Shown: positions 1,618-21,707 of the stretch, in pieces | Numbering within the stretch: the first letter of the stretch is position 1 | Layout of the letters: every line of letters starts with the position of its first letter | DNA from: a virus | DNA length: 22,803 nucleotides | Reading direction: 5' to 3' (one strand) | IMG/VR virus record: IMGVR_UViG_3300013132_000279 | Span: 1-22,803 of that record | Translations under genes and position numbers: made by a program | Notes under the pieces: generated by a model | The model's input: only the letters and a program-made list of their open reading frames with translations | Database searches by the model: none | Told to the model about the DNA's origin: nothing

Positions 1618-1625
1618 GATAAATA
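1618..1625 (+). promoter_or_regulatory. Late promoter element GATAAATA before the 125-aa structural gene
   Basis: GATAAATA resembles the T4 late -10 box TATAAATA read by the gp55 late sigma factor. The same octamer, or a one-base variant, recurs before six other structural genes in this window. It leaves a leader of about 60 nt that can form a small GC-rich hairpin (1645-1662: GCGG, loop CACCCA, CCGC) before the ATG at 1695. Confidence 0.72.
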
Positions 1626-1694
1626 TTACTGTTCAGAAGAACTTATGCGGCACCCACCGCGTAGGCCTAGAACGCCATTTTAAGGAGAAAACAA

Positions 1695-2072
1695 ATGGGA
1701 CGTCCAATTAAGAAAGTCTATATTGGTGACACTGGCACAGCCGGAAGCCAAATTCAAGTAACAGGATATGTAACAGGAGGCAGTGCTCAAACTGGTTACA
1801 TTAACAAACAAAAAGGTAGCAAACGATATAAAGTTACAACAGGTGACGGTGCTGAAGTACTGACACTAGTAGCATCGGGTAGCTTATCAGCAGGTCAAAT
1901 GTACATTAACGCAACTGACTCTGCAGGCGGTACATATTATGTACAAAAATTATATGATCGTACAGCGTATTTGGTACCAAACACTGGAACACAATTTTCT
2001 GCTAGCACACATGTTAGCTGGAATTTAACAGGCGCAGTTAATGGCGTATCTGTGATTTTAGATAACGCTTAA
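1695..2072 (+). CDS. Small virion structural protein, paralogue of the next gene
   Basis: 125 residues, Gly/Thr/Ser-rich, beta-type sequence with no signal peptide, typical of T4-like phage particle-surface or fibre-associated proteins. It starts MGRPIKKVYIGDTG; the next gene starts MRPIEKKYFKGDTG. The two share most of their remaining sequence at the C-terminus (INKQ-GS-RY, INATDSAGGTYY/W, GTQF, V-LDN). RBS AAGGAG lies eight bases before the ATG. It is driven by the late element at 1618 and followed 11 bp later by its paralogue, with another AAGGAG. A structural role is inferred from composition, promoter class and neighbours; the exact place in the particle is unknown. Confidence 0.8.
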   Translation: MGRPIKKVYIGDTGTAGSQIQVTGYVTGGSAQTGYINKQKGSKRYKVTTGDGAEVLTLVASGSLSAGQMYINATDSAGGTYYVQKLYDRTAYLVPNTGTQFSASTHVSWNLTGAVNGVSVILDNA

Positions 2073-3044: not shown

Positions 3045-3074
3045 AAAAATAGCACCCACGGGTGCTATTTTTTT
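3045..3074 (+). terminator. Intrinsic terminator after the two paralogous structural genes
   Basis: Twelve-base perfect stem AAAAATAGCACC / GGTGCTATTTTT with a CACG tetraloop and a run of seven T. It closes the 1695-3031 transcript just upstream of the next late promoter. Confidence 0.92.
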
Positions 3075-3089
3075 ATCTGATGCTTTGGT

Positions 3090-3097
3090 GATAAATA
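3090..3097 (+). promoter_or_regulatory. Late promoter element GATAAATA before the 222-aa fibre-like gene
   Basis: Octamer identical to those at 1618, 4548, 19634 and (minus) 17891. It lies 20 bp before the ATG at 3118 and 16 bp after a strong terminator. The short leader carries GGAT as the only Shine-Dalgarno candidate, the same GGATA-TTT context seen before the genes at 4579 and 19663. Confidence 0.75.
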
Positions 3098-4099: not shown

Positions 4100-4540
4100 A
4101 TGGGACGTATGCTTAAAAATCAAGTGTTCAGCGGCGCAGCCCATGCTTTGGGTGTACCTACAGGCACTAGTAGTATTGGACCAGACCATCCTGCTAATGC
4201 ACAAGTTCGCTGGAATACTACAACAAACAAAATGGAGTTTTGGGCTAACATTACAGGCACACCTAGTTGGAACGCTATTGCACGCGAAGGCAACGTGGTT
4301 ATTGCTAGAGACAACTTCACTGGTAATGGAGTTGCTGTGAAATTTTGGCCATTGAGTACAGCATTTGCATCAGGTGACGAAAATAAAGTATTAGTACATG
4401 CAGGTACAGTTTATCAGATTCCTACAACAAACTATACATTTGACGGCACCGGTAACATCACATTTAGTAGCCCGCCAAGTAATGGCGCCGCTATCACAGT
4501 TATCAGCGGATTTGCAAGCACAGTTTCAAGCATAGCCTAA
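4100..4540 (+). CDS. Fibre-like structural protein (146 aa)
   Basis: Two familiar phage-fibre elements are visible. The first is VRWNTTTNKMEFWANI (about residues 36-51), the 'RyNttTnklEfyng' element. The second starts at ARDNFTGNGVAVKFWPLS and runs through VLVHAGTVYQIPTTNYTF to ITFSSPPSNGAAITV (about 70-138), the common 'NGvyQ-P-nYt---itFt-aPp-Ga-I-V' domain of fibre and baseplate-associated proteins. It starts 3 bp after the previous stop. The gene is followed by the hairpin/late-promoter element at 4539-4574. Confidence 0.8.
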   Translation: MGRMLKNQVFSGAAHALGVPTGTSSIGPDHPANAQVRWNTTTNKMEFWANITGTPSWNAIAREGNVVIARDNFTGNGVAVKFWPLSTAFASGDENKVLVHAGTVYQIPTTNYTFDGTGNITFSSPPSNGAAITVISGFASTVSSIA

Positions 4541-4574
4541 TTATCCAGATAAATAGTGTAAAGGTTGGATAATT
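4539..4574 (+). promoter_or_regulatory. Hairpin that can hide the RBS of the 970-aa gene
   Basis: Inverted repeat AATTATCCA (4539-4547) / TGGATAATT (4566-4574), nine perfect pairs, with an 18-nt loop that begins with the late element GATAAATA. The right arm includes GGAT, the best Shine-Dalgarno candidate for the ATG at 4579. A transcript reading through from the upstream gene would contain both arms. One started from the late element, near 4561, would lack the left arm. Confidence 0.65.
4548..4555 (+). promoter_or_regulatory. Late promoter element GATAAATA before the 970-aa gene
   Basis: Same octamer as at 1618, 3090 and 19634. It is located in the loop of the 4539-4574 hairpin, 23 bp before the ATG at 4579. 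Confidence 0.75.
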
Positions 4575-4578
4575 TTTA

Positions 4579-7491
4579 ATGGCAATCAGTCGCGTTCCGG
4601 GGTACTCTCTACTAGCTAATCTAGACCGGCAAGGTACAGACCTTGCTCTAACCTCATCTGGTTTAACCTTACAATACTGGGACGTTGTTAATTATCGCAT
4701 TGGTGTTAATACAGACACCCCTCTGGAGGCGTTACATGTTAATGGCAATATCTTAACAGGTAACGGCCACATTTATTCAGGTGCTAATCTACAATTTGAC
4801 ATTGGCAGTATTGGTAATCAATGGCGTACTGGATACTTTGGTAATGTTACCGGTACTATCTTAACTGCCGACCAACCATTCATTACTAATGTAGGTCCAC
4901 TAGGCAACTTGACTGTTACTGGCAGTCTAACTGTTGGTAATATTAATTTAAGTAATTTAGTTATCAATGGTAATAGTATCATTAATGCAGGTAACAATAG
5001 AATTATCTATGTTGCTGATCCTATTAATAGCAGTGATGCAGCAACAAAAGCCTACGTTGATCAACAGGTGGTTGGTACAAACTACGGTAACCTAATACCT
5101 TTAGGTGACCCAACAGACGGTAACATACGCTATCCTGGTGCCTGGGCATTTTGGTCAAATACAACATTAGTAACTGATGCCATAGACGATCTAAATGAAA
5201 TGATGGAAAATGTTCGCGCCAATACTTTTGTTAAGAGCGTAACATTTACTGGAGCACCAACGGCAGGGGGTGCTGGTACTACAGTAACATTAACTATTGT
5301 ACCAACTGGTACAGCTAATCGTTACGATATTGCATGGGGTGATGGTACCTATTCAAATGCCAGCGTAACAACCAGCCCAACACACACTTATAATGATAAT
5401 ACAAACAGTCCTTTTGATCTAACAGTTCGCGCCTATAACAGCGCAGGACTAGGTACAGGCAGCGAAGCAAGTTTTGAAAGAATTGATTATATTATCATTT
5501 ACACAGCAGACCCTAACGTACAGTTTGATCTGTATCGTGCTTCAAGCGGCGGTAGTGCATTAACTGGTAATAATTTATATGTAATAGAAGGTAACGCAAT
5601 TTACCTACAAAACACCACAACAAATACCACAATGGCCACAGTGGCCTATCAAATGAATTGGGGTGACGGTACAAGTAACGTAGCTATCGCTAACGACAGT
5701 GCCAGTGGTGGTGTATTAGGTAGTCGCCTAGCATATACACCTAGTTACACAGCTAGCTCAGGTGCAACTACAAATACTATGCGCTTGTTCTTGACAAGCC
5801 ATACAACTGCTAACCCAAGTGTTATACCACGTGCTAATATTGCTAACGTAAAAGTTTATGATGCTAATATTAGTAGTCCTGCGGGTCTAAACACTAAAAC
5901 ATTGTCATTCAGTGGTAGTGTTGGTACTAACGCTACCTTAGCCGCTAGCGCCACAGATAACACAGGCGGTACAACCTTAGCAGCCAATGCTAGTGTAAGC
6001 CGCACAGTAGCCACGGGTACAACCTTAGTAACTACCTCAGGAAATGTTACAACCAATTATTCTTACAATGCTAACGTAGGTTACCTACAGGCAGTAGTTA
6101 ACGGCACAGTACGCGGTAACGCAAACGTTGCTAGTACTAGTGCAGGCATCACAGGCAACTTAGGTGTAATTGGTTTTAGCGATTTCTGGTTACTAACATC
6201 AGCAGGCGCAAGTACAACCTTTGCCGCAAGTACATATTATCCAGGAGCATTCTGGGGCTTTACGGCTAACGTAGTAGCACAAGGTGGTAGCATACCTGTA
6301 GGTATTAATCGCTTTGGTCTTAACCATAGTAGTACAGGTATTGTGGCTAATGTAGAATTTGTTAAAGATGATGTAACAAGTGTGCCTACGGTTACAGCAG
6401 GTACGCTGGCAATCAAAGCACCAGGTACATATAGATACATTAGTGGTATTCCATATTTCAATACAGGAAGCCCGCAACTATGGTGGCAGAATATTACCAT
6501 CAACAGTTGGATTGGCCAGACATGGAATAATACTTCTAACGTAGCCTATGTAGTTACAGGCACAGTTAAAGAAGGATCCTCAGGCAACGCTATTCTTGCT
6601 AACTCACATGCTTATGTAAATCTAAGTAATATTAGCAGTCCAATGCTGGCTAGCGGCACACCGGTTGCAGGCACAGGTAATGTATCAGCTTACAATGCAG
6701 GTAACTTAACAGTAGCTATTAATCAAGCAAGTGTTCGCAGTGTGGCTAACTTAAGAATTGTAGTTACAAACGTAAACGGCACAAGTGCCTATGTTGAAAC
6801 AGGTGTAAACGTTCAAGTTCACACAGCAAGCCAAAGCGGTATTAGTGAGATTGCTATCAGTGCTAACACGAGTGCTAATACTAACCCAGCAGTGCGTAGT
6901 ACCTACTTCTTAGCTAGTACCTCACATACACCAAGTTATGTAAGTTCTACAAACTTTATGACTACACCAAATGTTTATACAGAGGCAAGCGACCCTGGTG
7001 TAGCAGGCACACGCGAAGCAACAATTCGTATTGGCGTATTAAAATGGTCAGCTAATAATTACAGCACAGGATACTTACCTGTAGGACCAGATCGCAGTGC
7101 AGATGGCACAAGTTATCAATACTTTACCATGGGACTACAACGTAGCGGGGTTAGTGGATTTAACCTACACTTAGTAGCACCTGCTGGTATTGCTGGCTTG
7201 TGGGTAGCAGCCCCAGGCACATATATTGATCAAACCAGTTCATTAAATGGATGGTTAGATGCTACAACTAGCTATGCTGGTAGCGGTCGTCCTGGTGCTA
7301 ACACAGGTAGTGGTGGCAACGGATCAAACGGGTGTGGTACTGGTGCACTAGTATCAGCTAACGTAGCCTTAAGCGGTACCTTTGCAATGACATTAGGTAA
7401 CGTAAGTTTATCATCAGCGACTAATAATGTTGCTTTAGTTAGAATTGCCCTAGCTAGTGGACAAACAGTTTCCACATTGGCGGTGTCATAA
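4579..7491 (+). CDS. Large PKD-domain virion structural/fibre protein (970 aa)
   Basis: The N-terminal part (1-165) is fibre-like: IGVNTDTPLEALHVNGNILTG, a GNLTVTGSLTVGNI strand pair, then DPINSSDAATKAYVD (about 147-161), a hallmark of phage tail fibres. It is followed by DAIDDLNEMMENVRANTFVK and a PKD-like immunoglobulin fold at about 218-295 with the diagnostic WGDGT at 253-257. A second WGDGT lies at 361-365, so there are probably two PKD-like domains, which often bind carbohydrate or act as spacers. The remaining 600 residues are Ser/Thr/Asn/Gly-rich beta sequence. One cysteine lies near the C-terminus in a Gly-rich stretch (NGSNGCGTG). The stop overlaps the next start as TAATG, so the two are translationally coupled. 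A surface-exposed, host-range-related role is inferred. Confidence 0.85.
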   Translation: MAISRVPGYSLLANLDRQGTDLALTSSGLTLQYWDVVNYRIGVNTDTPLEALHVNGNILTGNGHIYSGANLQFDIGSIGNQWRTGYFGNVTGTILTADQPFITNVGPLGNLTVTGSLTVGNINLSNLVINGNSIINAGNNRIIYVADPINSSDAATKAYVDQQVVGTNYGNLIPLGDPTDGNIRYPGAWAFWSNTTLVTDAIDDLNEMMENVRANTFVKSVTFTGAPTAGGAGTTVTLTIVPTGTANRYDIAWGDGTYSNASVTTSPTHTYNDNTNSPFDLTVRAYNSAGLGTGSEASFERIDYIIIYTADPNVQFDLYRASSGGSALTGNNLYVIEGNAIYLQNTTTNTTMATVAYQMNWGDGTSNVAIANDSASGGVLGSRLAYTPSYTASSGATTNTMRLFLTSHTTANPSVIPRANIANVKVYDANISSPAGLNTKTLSFSGSVGTNATLAASATDNTGGTTLAANASVSRTVATGTTLVTTSGNVTTNYSYNANVGYLQAVVNGTVRGNANVASTSAGITGNLGVIGFSDFWLLTSAGASTTFAASTYYPGAFWGFTANVVAQGGSIPVGINRFGLNHSSTGIVANVEFVKDDVTSVPTVTAGTLAIKAPGTYRYISGIPYFNTGSPQLWWQNITINSWIGQTWNNTSNVAYVVTGTVKEGSSGNAILANSHAYVNLSNISSPMLASGTPVAGTGNVSAYNAGNLTVAINQASVRSVANLRIVVTNVNGTSAYVETGVNVQVHTASQSGISEIAISANTSANTNPAVRSTYFLASTSHTPSYVSSTNFMTTPNVYTEASDPGVAGTREATIRIGVLKWSANNYSTGYLPVGPDRSADGTSYQYFTMGLQRSGVSGFNLHLVAPAGIAGLWVAAPGTYIDQTSSLNGWLDATTSYAGSGRPGANTGSGGNGSNGCGTGALVSANVALSGTFAMTLGNVSLSSATNNVALVRIALASGQTVSTLAVS

Positions 7492-9046: not shown

Positions 9047-12000
9047 ATGGCGGCATTGACCCGAATTTTTAACAACCAAATCTATAATAGCACAATTATA
9101 GGTTATCAAAAAATTGCAGCAGGTACTATCACAGGTAGCTTATTTGCAAGCAACGTAACAGTTCCAGGCGACTTACTAATTTCAGGTAACTTGTTTGTAT
9201 TAGGGTCTAGCTCATATACAACAATCGCAAGTACTAACACCTATGTAAACGACCCATTGATCCTTATGAATAACGGTTTCAGTGGATCTAATAGTTACGA
9301 CGAAGGTTTGATTTTTAATCGTGGTACTGACCAAAACCAAGCTATTATTTGGAGTGAAGCATTTGATGAATTCCGCTTAATTGCAACAAACGAAACAGGT
9401 ACCACATACGGTAATATAAATGCCACTGGCTTAGCAAGATTAAGTGTTGGTAGTTTTAACGTACCAGGCACAGCAAATATTGGTACTTTAGCAGTAACAG
9501 GTGCTATCTCTGGTGCAAGTTTAAATGTATCAGGCAATGTATTGGCATCAACTGTGGGTGCTAGTTTCTTAACAGCTTCTACAGTAGCAGTTGGTAACAT
9601 CGCCGCAGTTACAGTAGGCAATGTCGGAACACAATTTAATGGCGCCGCTGTTAACTTAAGCGGTAATATATTATCAGCAGGCGCAGTTCATAATAGTTTA
9701 ACAGTGAATGGTAATGAATCAGTAACTGGTTACTTAAACGTAACTGGTAACGTAATGGCGGCTGTTATTACTGCGAGCCAATTGAACACAACTGGTAACG
9801 TACTAGCAACTGCTGGTGTATTTAATGGGTTAACAGTGAATGGTAATGAAGCAGTGACTGGTTACTTAAACGTAACCGGTAATGTAATGACTGCCCAATT
9901 AAATGCAGGACAAGTCAACACAACTGGTAACGTACTAGCAACTGCTGGTGTATTTAATGGGTTAACAGTGAATGGTAATGAAGCAGTGACTGGTTACTTA
10001 AACGTAACTGGTAACATTATGGGCGCTGCTGGTATCCTTAACGGATTAACTGTAAACGGCAACGAAATTGTTACTGGTTATTTGGATGTAACAGGTAATG
10101 TTTTAGCAACAACGGTATTGGCACAATTAGTAACAGCGGACGACGCTACGTTTGGTAATGTAGCCGCAGGATTCATCGGAAACACCGGTACAGCATACAC
10201 TGGTGCAAGCATCAACTTAAGTGGTAACGTATTAGCTGCCGCAGGTGTTTATAATGCACTAACAGTGAATGGTAATGAATCAGTTACTGGTTATTTGAAT
10301 GTAACTGGTAACGTATTAGCTGCCGCAGGTGTTTATAATGCACTAACAGTGAATGGTAATGAATCAGTTACTGGTTATTTGAATGTAACCGGTAACGTAA
10401 TGACGGCACAATTAAATGTGGGTCAAATTAATACCACAGGTAATGTATTAGCAACAGCTGGTACATTTAATGCGCTCACAGTAAACGGGAATGAAAGTGT
10501 AACTGGTTACTTGAACGTAACAGGTAACATTTTAGGCGCTGCAGGAACACTTAGTAGTTTAACGGTCAATGGTAACGAGTCGGTAACAGGTTACTTGAAT
10601 GTAACAGGGAACATTTTAGGCGCTACTGGTACACTAGGTGTACTAGGCGTTAACAACAGCTTATGGGCTAATGCAAGTATAGCAACTACCGCACAAGGTA
10701 TTGGTGCGATTGTTGTACCTAACGGTGGTATTAGCGTAGCAGGTGCAGCAAATATTGCAGGTGCAATCACTACAGCAGGGGCAGCACAATTTAATAATAC
10801 AGTAACAGTTGGCGGCATCGAGTATATCACTAACACAACCAACGCCACAGAAGGCACTGGCTCAAGCGGTGCACTGCAAATTAAGGGTGGCGCAAGTATT
10901 GCTCGAGATTTGCATATTGGTGGCAATCTTTACGCAAGTAATATCTTTACAACAACATATCAAGTTATCACAGTACAGGATCCGTTACTGTACTTAGATG
11001 CGGCTAACACATATCCGTACAACTTTGATATTGGTTTCTATAGCAACTTTGTAGGGCCTAACCCGATTGACGACACTGGTAACGTTTACCAGCATACTGG
11101 GGTAGTCCGTGATGACACTGACAACACTTGGAAATTCTTCAGTAACGTTAGAACTGAACCTAGCGGTAGCGCGATTACATTTGATACTAATACAATTTAC
11201 GACCCAGTTAAAGCAGGTAACTTACAGTTAACATACACTCAAGCTGCAACAAGCACCACAACAGGTGCCCTACAAGTCGCAGGTGGAGCAGGCATTGCAG
11301 GAACGGTGGTAGCTGGACAAATTAACAGCACAGGTAATGTACTAGGTCAAGCCGGCACATTTAACGCATTAACAGTAAACGGCAATGAATCAGTAACTGG
11401 TTACTTGAATGTAACTGGTAACGTACTAACAGCATCATTGAGCACCGGGCAAATTAATACAACAGGTAACGTACTTGCTACGGCGGGTACATTTAACGCA
11501 TTAACAGTAAACGGCAATGAATCAGTAACTGGTTACTTGAATGTAACTGGCAATATTATAGGTGCAGCTGGCACATTAAGCGGCTTAACTGTAAATGGTA
11601 ACGAGTCAATAACTGGTTATCTAAACGTAACTGGTAATGTAATAGCATCAGCAGGCACGTTAAATGGCTTAACTGTGAATGGAGCAACAACACAAAATGG
11701 TACTCTAACAGTATCAAGTGGATTCATTAATTCATCAGGCAATATTTTAGCTACTGCGGGCACATTTAATAGCTTAACTGTAAATGGTAATGAATCAGTA
11801 ACTGGTTACTTGAATGTAACTGGTAACGTAATGGCCGCAGTAATTACAGCAAGTCAATTAAATTCTACAGGTAATATTGAAGCTCAAAATGGTGTATTAA
11901 ATGGCTTAACTGTAAATGGTAATGAATCAGTAACTGGTTACTTAAATGTAACCGGTAATATTATGGGAGCAGTTGGCACGTTAAGTGGCTTAACTGTTAA

Positions 12001-17883: not shown

Positions 17884-17891
17884 TATTTATC
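17884..17891 (-). promoter_or_regulatory. Late promoter element GATAAATA for the gp14-gp15-Nudix operon
   Basis: On the minus strand the octamer GATAAATA lies 22 bp before the gp14 ATG, the same spacing as before gp13 (21 bp) and the 970-aa gene (23 bp). It is 5 bp from the -35 box of a sigma70 promoter pointing right. Confidence 0.76.
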
Positions 17892-19614: not shown

Positions 19615-19660
19615 AAATTATCCTGTTATCAACGATAAATACTTGGTAACAGGATAATTT
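19615..19660 (+). promoter_or_regulatory. Hairpin that can hide the gp13 RBS, late promoter in the loop
   Basis: Two 16-nt arms, AAATTATCCTGTTATC (19615-19630) and GGTAACAGGATAATTT (19645-19660), pair over all 16 positions in RNA (15 Watson-Crick pairs and one U-G). The 14-nt loop holds the late element GATAAATA. The right arm contains AGGA, the Shine-Dalgarno of gp13 (ATG 19663). Early read-through from 17897 would carry the closed hairpin; late transcripts starting near 19647 lack the left arm and should be open. Known precedents: T4 genes e, soc and 49. Confidence 0.8.
19634..19641 (+). promoter_or_regulatory. Late promoter element GATAAATA for gp13
   Basis: Octamer in the loop of the 19615-19660 hairpin, 21 bp before the gp13 ATG. 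Confidence 0.77.
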
Positions 19661-19662
19661 AC

Positions 19663-20577
19663 ATGTCATTATTACCAGCAAACGTATCAGCACAAAGCGG
19701 CTTAACAGCTAATCTTAGCTTAACCACAGAAAGCCTCTATAATCCAGTAACTGGCACTGGTGCAGGCCCTATTGCTTTTGATGCTAATCTACAAGCACAA
19801 TTAACCACAGTACAAAGCCTGCAGAACGATATCACTGACTACATTCGATTGCGTTTGGGTTATGGTATGATTGATGTTGAGGCTGATAAAGAACATTTTG
19901 ATATGGGGATTAAACAAGCATTGATCCGTTATCGTCAAAAGAGTTCAAACGCAGTTGAAGAAAGTTATGCGTTCTTAGATATCTATCCTGAAACACAAGA
20001 ATATATTCTCCCTAACAATATTATGGATGTTAAACAGATTTATCGACGTGGTATTGGTAGCGTTACAGGTACAACTGCTAGCCAATTTGAACCATTTGCA
20101 AGCGGCTATTTAAACACTTATATGTTAGTAGCTGGCCGTGTTGGTGGGTTAACTAACTACGAATTATTTGTAGATTATCAAAAACTTGCTATGCGTATGT
20201 TTGGCGGCTTTATGAACTTCTACTGGAACAAAGTTACTAAGAAACTCACTTTAGTTCGCAAACAACCATTCCAGGGTGCTAATAATACAGCACAATCTGA
20301 AACAGTTATGTTACATGTGTTTAATGTTAAACCAGATATTGTATTGTTAAACGATCCGCAGGCATTTCCATGGATTCAAGACTATGCGTATGCACTAACA
20401 TCGATTAGTGTTGGTCAAGCACGTGAAAAATTTGCATCTATTGCTGGCCCACAAGGTGGCACGACCCTAAACGGTACAGCTATCAAAGCAGAAGGGCAGG
20501 CCTTGCTAGATAAATTAGACGAAGAAATCAAAAATTATGTAGACGGTGGTCAACCATTAACTTGGATTATGGGCTAA
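19663..20577 (+). CDS. 13: Neck protein gp13-like (304 aa)
   Basis: Forms the head-proximal neck ring with gp14 and helps join filled heads to tails. Size matches T4 gp13 (309 aa). The conserved segment NDITDYIRLRLGYGMIDVEA, then HFDMGIKQALIRYRQKS and EYILPNNIMDVKQIYRRGIGS corresponds to T4 'LRRLGAPIINVELT...RALELYGEY...VTRILRTNIGS'. Later aromatic-rich MFGGFMNFYWNKVTKKLTLV and FPWIQDYAYALTSISVGQAREKF complete the plan. RBS AGGA lies within the hairpin arm. It has its own late promoter, is on the plus strand opposite to gp14 and gp15, and is followed by the kinase promoter. Confidence 0.87.
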   Translation: MSLLPANVSAQSGLTANLSLTTESLYNPVTGTGAGPIAFDANLQAQLTTVQSLQNDITDYIRLRLGYGMIDVEADKEHFDMGIKQALIRYRQKSSNAVEESYAFLDIYPETQEYILPNNIMDVKQIYRRGIGSVTGTTASQFEPFASGYLNTYMLVAGRVGGLTNYELFVDYQKLAMRMFGGFMNFYWNKVTKKLTLVRKQPFQGANNTAQSETVMLHVFNVKPDIVLLNDPQAFPWIQDYAYALTSISVGQAREKFASIAGPQGGTTLNGTAIKAEGQALLDKLDEEIKNYVDGGQPLTWIMG

Positions 20578-21659: not shown

Positions 21660-21707
21660 CACTTTAAACCACTGATTTAACCAAATAATAATAAATAGTT
21701 TAAAGTG
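21660..21707 (+). promoter_or_regulatory. Inverted repeat around the gp18 late promoter
   Basis: Ten-base perfect arms CACTTTAAAC (21660-21669) / GTTTAAAGTG (21698-21707) with a 28-nt loop that contains AATAAATA. A shorter alternative pairing, ACCACT (21668-21673) / AGTGGT (21704-21709), also keeps the element in the loop. The gp18 RBS (GAGGA at 21719-21723) is outside the stem, so this hairpin would not directly block translation. Confidence 0.55.
21690..21697 (+). promoter_or_regulatory. Late promoter element AATAAATA for gp18
   Basis: One-base variant of the GATAAATA octamer, 36 bp before the gp18 ATG, in the loop of the 21660-21707 inverted repeat. Confidence 0.62.

Follow-up and report, generated by a model that had tools for sequence, protein, structure and literature searches.

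A predicted ribosome-binding-site hairpin around a late promoter, ahead of a large tail-type gene in a freshwater T4-like phage

Ahead of a 970-amino-acid (970-aa) gene in the 22.8-kb stretch of phage DNA analyzed here (22,803 nt, hereafter the window), two short complementary arms enclose a predicted late promoter, and the arm nearer the gene covers a candidate ribosome-binding site (RBS). An earlier note, made from the sequence, had described this hairpin at positions 4539-4574, the late promoter lying in its loop; we confirm it, with sequence and coordinates exact. Comparison among relatives gives stronger evidence than the window alone and makes the hairpin convincing, since it appears to be pairing, not sequence, that is kept at this leader. 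We favor, as the probable explanation, translational control by a promoter within a hairpin, of the kind known from T4 gene e, soc and I-TevI.

The hairpin and its surroundings

The window carries a T4-type structural region that encodes a major head protein, tail sheath-family proteins and a head-tail adaptor. Its head protein is closest to those of large T4-superfamily phages, and a DNA-level search of a phage collection with the window returned no match. The 970-aa open reading frame (ORF; 4579-7491, + strand, as are all features below unless stated) is assigned to PHROG 8578 and, over its second half, is similar to Caulobacter phage proteins that carry a tail-protein annotation. Upstream lies a 146-aa ORF (4100-4540), whose stop codon overlaps the left arm of the hairpin. 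Late promoter boxes of the form NATAAATA occur in the window at 1618, 3090, 4548, 8952, 19634 and 21690 on the + strand and at 17891 on the - strand. The box at 3090-3097 is the likely source of read-through RNA. Because an inverted repeat followed by a T-run, resembling a terminator, lies just above it (3045-3072), RNA entering the 970-aa site is probably itself late and from the 3090 promoter. The earlier note had suggested an effect on relative amounts rather than timing, since the upstream genes are themselves late, and the position of their own late box makes that doubt about timing reasonable.

Positions 4539-4574 read AATTATCCA-GATAAATA-GTGTAAAGGT-TGGATAATT, then TTTA and the start codon (ATG, 4579). 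The left arm, AATTATCCA (4539-4547), starts with the last two bases of the upstream stop codon TAA, and pairs with the right arm, TGGATAATT (4566-4574), over 9 bp, or 10 bp with G4548-U4565. The predicted T4-type late box, GATAAATA (4548-4555), lies in the loop. In T4, the late box occupies -13 to -6; from this spacing we infer a late start near 4561, which would give an 18-nt leader (4561-4578). Two Shine-Dalgarno candidates are present. The right arm includes GGA(T) (4567-4570), the RBS proposed in the earlier note, of which GGA (4567-4569) is paired. The other candidate, AAGG (4561-4564), is in the loop. The stems of relatives pair one candidate or the other, and in some of them AAGG falls within the right arm. 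The predicted strength of the hairpin is modest, about -7 kcal/mol, compared with -20.7 kcal/mol for a sister hairpin at 19616-19659.

Judged alone, the window site rises weakly above chance. Perfect 9-bp inverted repeats are common in the window (22 word pairs, partly overlapping, versus a shuffled mean of 5), and such a repeat by itself is weak evidence. The 70-nt RNA of this site folds no better than shuffles (z = -0.18, versus -5.0 at the sister site), and neither occlusion nor duplex-energy tests on the window site alone were significant. As a direct test, we shuffled the left flank and rescored the best contiguous stem across the promoter; two runs gave p values of 0.025 and 0.0075. A null built by swapping left flanks among promoters performs poorly, because sites with identical arms pair with one another.

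The Rfam freshwater-2 RNA (RF02980, 55.5 bits) matches 1624-1697 (+), directly behind the late box at 1618-1625, and extends to the start codon (ATG) of an ORF at 1695-2072; it looks like the late-transcript leader of a T4-like phage. A similar leader is found in a 188.8-kb related contig at 44748 (-). The tail sheath gene is preceded by a AATAAATA box lying within an inverted repeat (21660-21707), which stops short of the gene's likely RBS.

Pairing in relatives and at other late promoters

We gathered 24 leaders of the 970-aa gene by protein similarity, irrespective of their arms. In most, a long stem spans the late promoter; over all 24 the stem score averages 18.2, versus 12.7 for shuffled left flanks (Fisher 2e-13, a value overstated by shared ancestry). 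Among nearer relatives the leader core, AAAGGTTGGA, is near-constant, and the left arms take at least five unrelated forms (TAATTATCCAG, TTAACTTTTCT, ACTCTAGCCT, TTCAACCTT, AACAGCTTC, TGAAAAATCC). Pairing is thus conserved while sequence changes. Among close relatives, one (L104) carries a double compensatory change, AATAATCC/GGATTATT, and two others (L111 and L114) carry single changes to G-U. A covariation score on the alignment of 970-aa leaders was reached in 5 of 500 shuffles and stood above slid controls. Four leaders (L113, L241, L261 and L283) are without a convincing straddling stem.

The leader is different, and longer, in more distant relatives of the 970-aa gene. In five of them (L259, L264, L266, L273 and L285; just upstream of position 1501), the late promoter lies about 70 nt upstream and the conserved leader contains CACCT..AGGTG and CGCAAGATAGCG motifs. 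This is possibly a structured late leader; an Rfam search of the L264 and L259 leaders gave no match.

Is a promoter-straddling stem simply a common property of late promoters? We scored 41 late promoters from the window, the 188.8-kb contig and a 122.5-kb contig, and the stem is restricted to few late genes. Seven promoters reach p <= 0.0075, belonging to gp13-like genes (three), the 970-aa gene (two), a baseplate wedge gene and a homing endonuclease gene, and the others are mostly flat. The homing endonuclease in the 122.5-kb contig is of the textbook class for this control and so serves as a positive control within the set. The wedge-gene leader, followed through 69 relatives, gives mostly flat p values, with stems chiefly in the nearest relatives, which indicates that the stem test is not trivially positive.

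In L100 (122.5-kb relative, 110606), the homing endonuclease gene has a strong promoter-straddling hairpin just upstream of 11632. In L088 (188.8-kb relative, 69003), the baseplate wedge gene has its own straddling hairpin at 9603-9633, TTTATTTCTAA/TTAGGAATAAA; in its nearest relatives the arms differ yet still pair. Among cultured jumbo phages, the gp13-like gene is preceded by hairpins with other arms around TCTAAATA in PBECO4 (p = 0.015), K64-1 (p = 0.005) and XaC1 (p = 0.02). The GAP32 gp13-like leader has a similar look, with a stem that is not significant. Across these four phages (GAP32, PBECO4, K64-1 and XaC1; L219-L222) the hairpin surrounds (C/T)CTAAATA, and a T-run is present in three. 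In the related phage CBB, a reported late motif is ATAAATA.

The sister site and the origin of shared arms

The sister hairpin (19616-19659) surrounds GATAAATA at 19634-19641, before the gp13-like gene (19663-20577), and has the same 8-base arms as the site at 4539-4574. The earlier note had pointed out these common bases and proposed a search for their recurrence, which we carried out in the 22.8-kb window and in relatives. Within the window, a search for the pattern AATTATCC-N(0-30)-GGATAATT returns just these two sites; none of 100 shuffles contains it. In the 188.8-kb contig it occurs exactly twice, at the same two genes. A scan of IMG/VR found the pattern in 62 stretches: the majority have a 44-nt form before a gp13-like gene, 8 (including the window) have a 36-nt form before the 970-aa gene, and the remainder are mixed.

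It is tempting to see in this recurrence a reused module, as the earlier note did. The relatives speak against it. In five related genomes with both sites readable, the arms differ between the 970-aa and gp13-like sites, and relatives of the 970-aa gene have unrelated left arms. Because of these differences, we read the identical arms at the two window sites as probably the product of similar RBSs together with a constraint to pair. PeSL are mobile promoter/stem-loop cassettes that lie between genes of T4-type phages. Promoter and stem-loop are found in both; here, however, only the RBS and its complement are common to sites, and the arms evolve independently. We therefore reject a copied or mobile module, since nothing beyond the RBS and its complement is shared and the arms differ in the five genomes.

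Proposed control and its alternatives

The control we favor would work as follows. RNA from upstream, probably from the 3090 late promoter, would carry both arms, fold, and pair the ribosome-binding region of the 970-aa gene. RNA from GATAAATA at 4548-4555 would start near 4561, inside the hairpin, so that without the left arm its 18-nt leader would be open and its RBS free. Most of the 970-aa protein would then come from the gene's own promoter. When the RNA is polycistronic, initiation at the 970-aa gene would be lowered by the hairpin unless a ribosome at the overlapping upstream stop held the left arm open. Given the modest predicted energy relative to the sister site, a partial effect on amount seems likelier than a tight switch. 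The earlier note had suggested that the element sets relative amounts by uncoupling the gene from read-through. Uncoupling is possible but doubtful, because the left arm begins inside the upstream stop codon and a terminating ribosome should hold the hairpin open.

The same overlap raises an alternative that is rather unlikely but deserves weight: the element may be mainly a translational coupling device, closing the 970-aa gene unless the 146-aa gene has just been translated, so that the two proteins are made in proportion, with the loop promoter adding extra open message. Ribosomes ending at the overlapping upstream stop would reach the closing arm, and in the window as in 21 relatives the start of the best left arm falls from 13 bases before to 5 bases after the first base of that stop. 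Coupling by RNA unfolding is also documented (PMC12548453). However, the spacing from upstream stop to 970-aa start is 32-47 nt, long for efficient coupling; the position of the arm is partly forced by that of the promoter; and at the sister site the arm begins a few bases past the stop. An improbable reading is that 4539-4574 has no function in this phage and is a weak A+T-rich inverted repeat that has persisted through chance or descent. The abundance of 9-bp repeats in the window and the ordinary fold energy are what it would predict, but pairing has been kept, or rebuilt with other sequences, in most relatives, and compensatory changes are seen.

Two further explanations are very unlikely, and we reject both. 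One is that a protein controlling the late promoter binds the arms as a DNA palindrome, a reading encouraged by symmetric arms flanking a promoter box. The non-Watson-Crick cells at the gp13-like sister site comprise 25 G-U versus 3 A-C, with pairs counted ungapped and anchored on the promoter, as one alignment there had long gaps. This excess of G-U favors pairing of the sense-strand RNA over a DNA palindrome, and the unrelated arm sequences of relatives are unlike a protein site. The other, just as hard to credit, is a transcription terminator or attenuator that stops upstream RNA and has a promoter inside it. Five T follow the stem in the window, and the gp13-like hairpins of PBECO4 and XaC1 around TCTAAATA are followed by a T-run, so that a terminator is possible at those gp13-like sites. 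At the 970-aa gene, however, the stem is A+T-rich rather than G+C-rich, the T-run is absent from most relatives, and a terminator scan did not list the 4539-4574 hairpin.

The favored reading, control by a promoter within the hairpin, has precedents. In T4, gene e (lysozyme), soc and gene 49 have a late promoter in the 5'-strand part of an RBS-sequestering hairpin, and their late RNA lacks that strand (PMC3014915). The 970-aa site has a late box between its arms, pairing conserved in most relatives, and a predicted late RNA without the left arm; it differs in that the gene is a large tail-type gene, the RNA entering from upstream is probably late as well, and the stem is weak. The hairpin-controlled homing endonucleases I-TevI, segB and mobE have the promoter-in-hairpin layout too (PMC2988022), which is common to the 970-aa site and the homing endonuclease of the 122.5-kb contig. 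In contrast, the 970-aa gene is no endonuclease, and no intron or inserted gene is involved. Coupling by RNA unfolding, as in MS2 lysis and f1 gene IX (PMC12548453), resembles the 970-aa site in that an RBS lies in a hairpin that upstream ribosomes could open, whereas the 970-aa hairpin contains a late promoter predicted to give a second, open message.

On the comparative evidence, the 970-aa hairpin of this freshwater T4-like phage would be a new, evolutionarily supported case of control known from T4. We suggest, tentatively, a wider pattern: a clade of freshwater T4-like phages may have repeatedly rebuilt promoter-straddling hairpins at a fixed few virion genes (the gp13-like head-tail adaptor, the 970-aa tail-type gene and the baseplate wedge). 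A left arm placed on the upstream stop might then make a two-mode leader, coupled on polycistronic RNA and independent on its own late RNA, which would adjust the proportions of virion proteins. Late genes under such control could be sought by a simple signature, a stem that straddles NATAAATA and places its right arm on the leader. With the 970-aa site, this type of control, described chiefly for T4 lysozyme and homing endonucleases, would reach structural genes of widespread uncultured phages.
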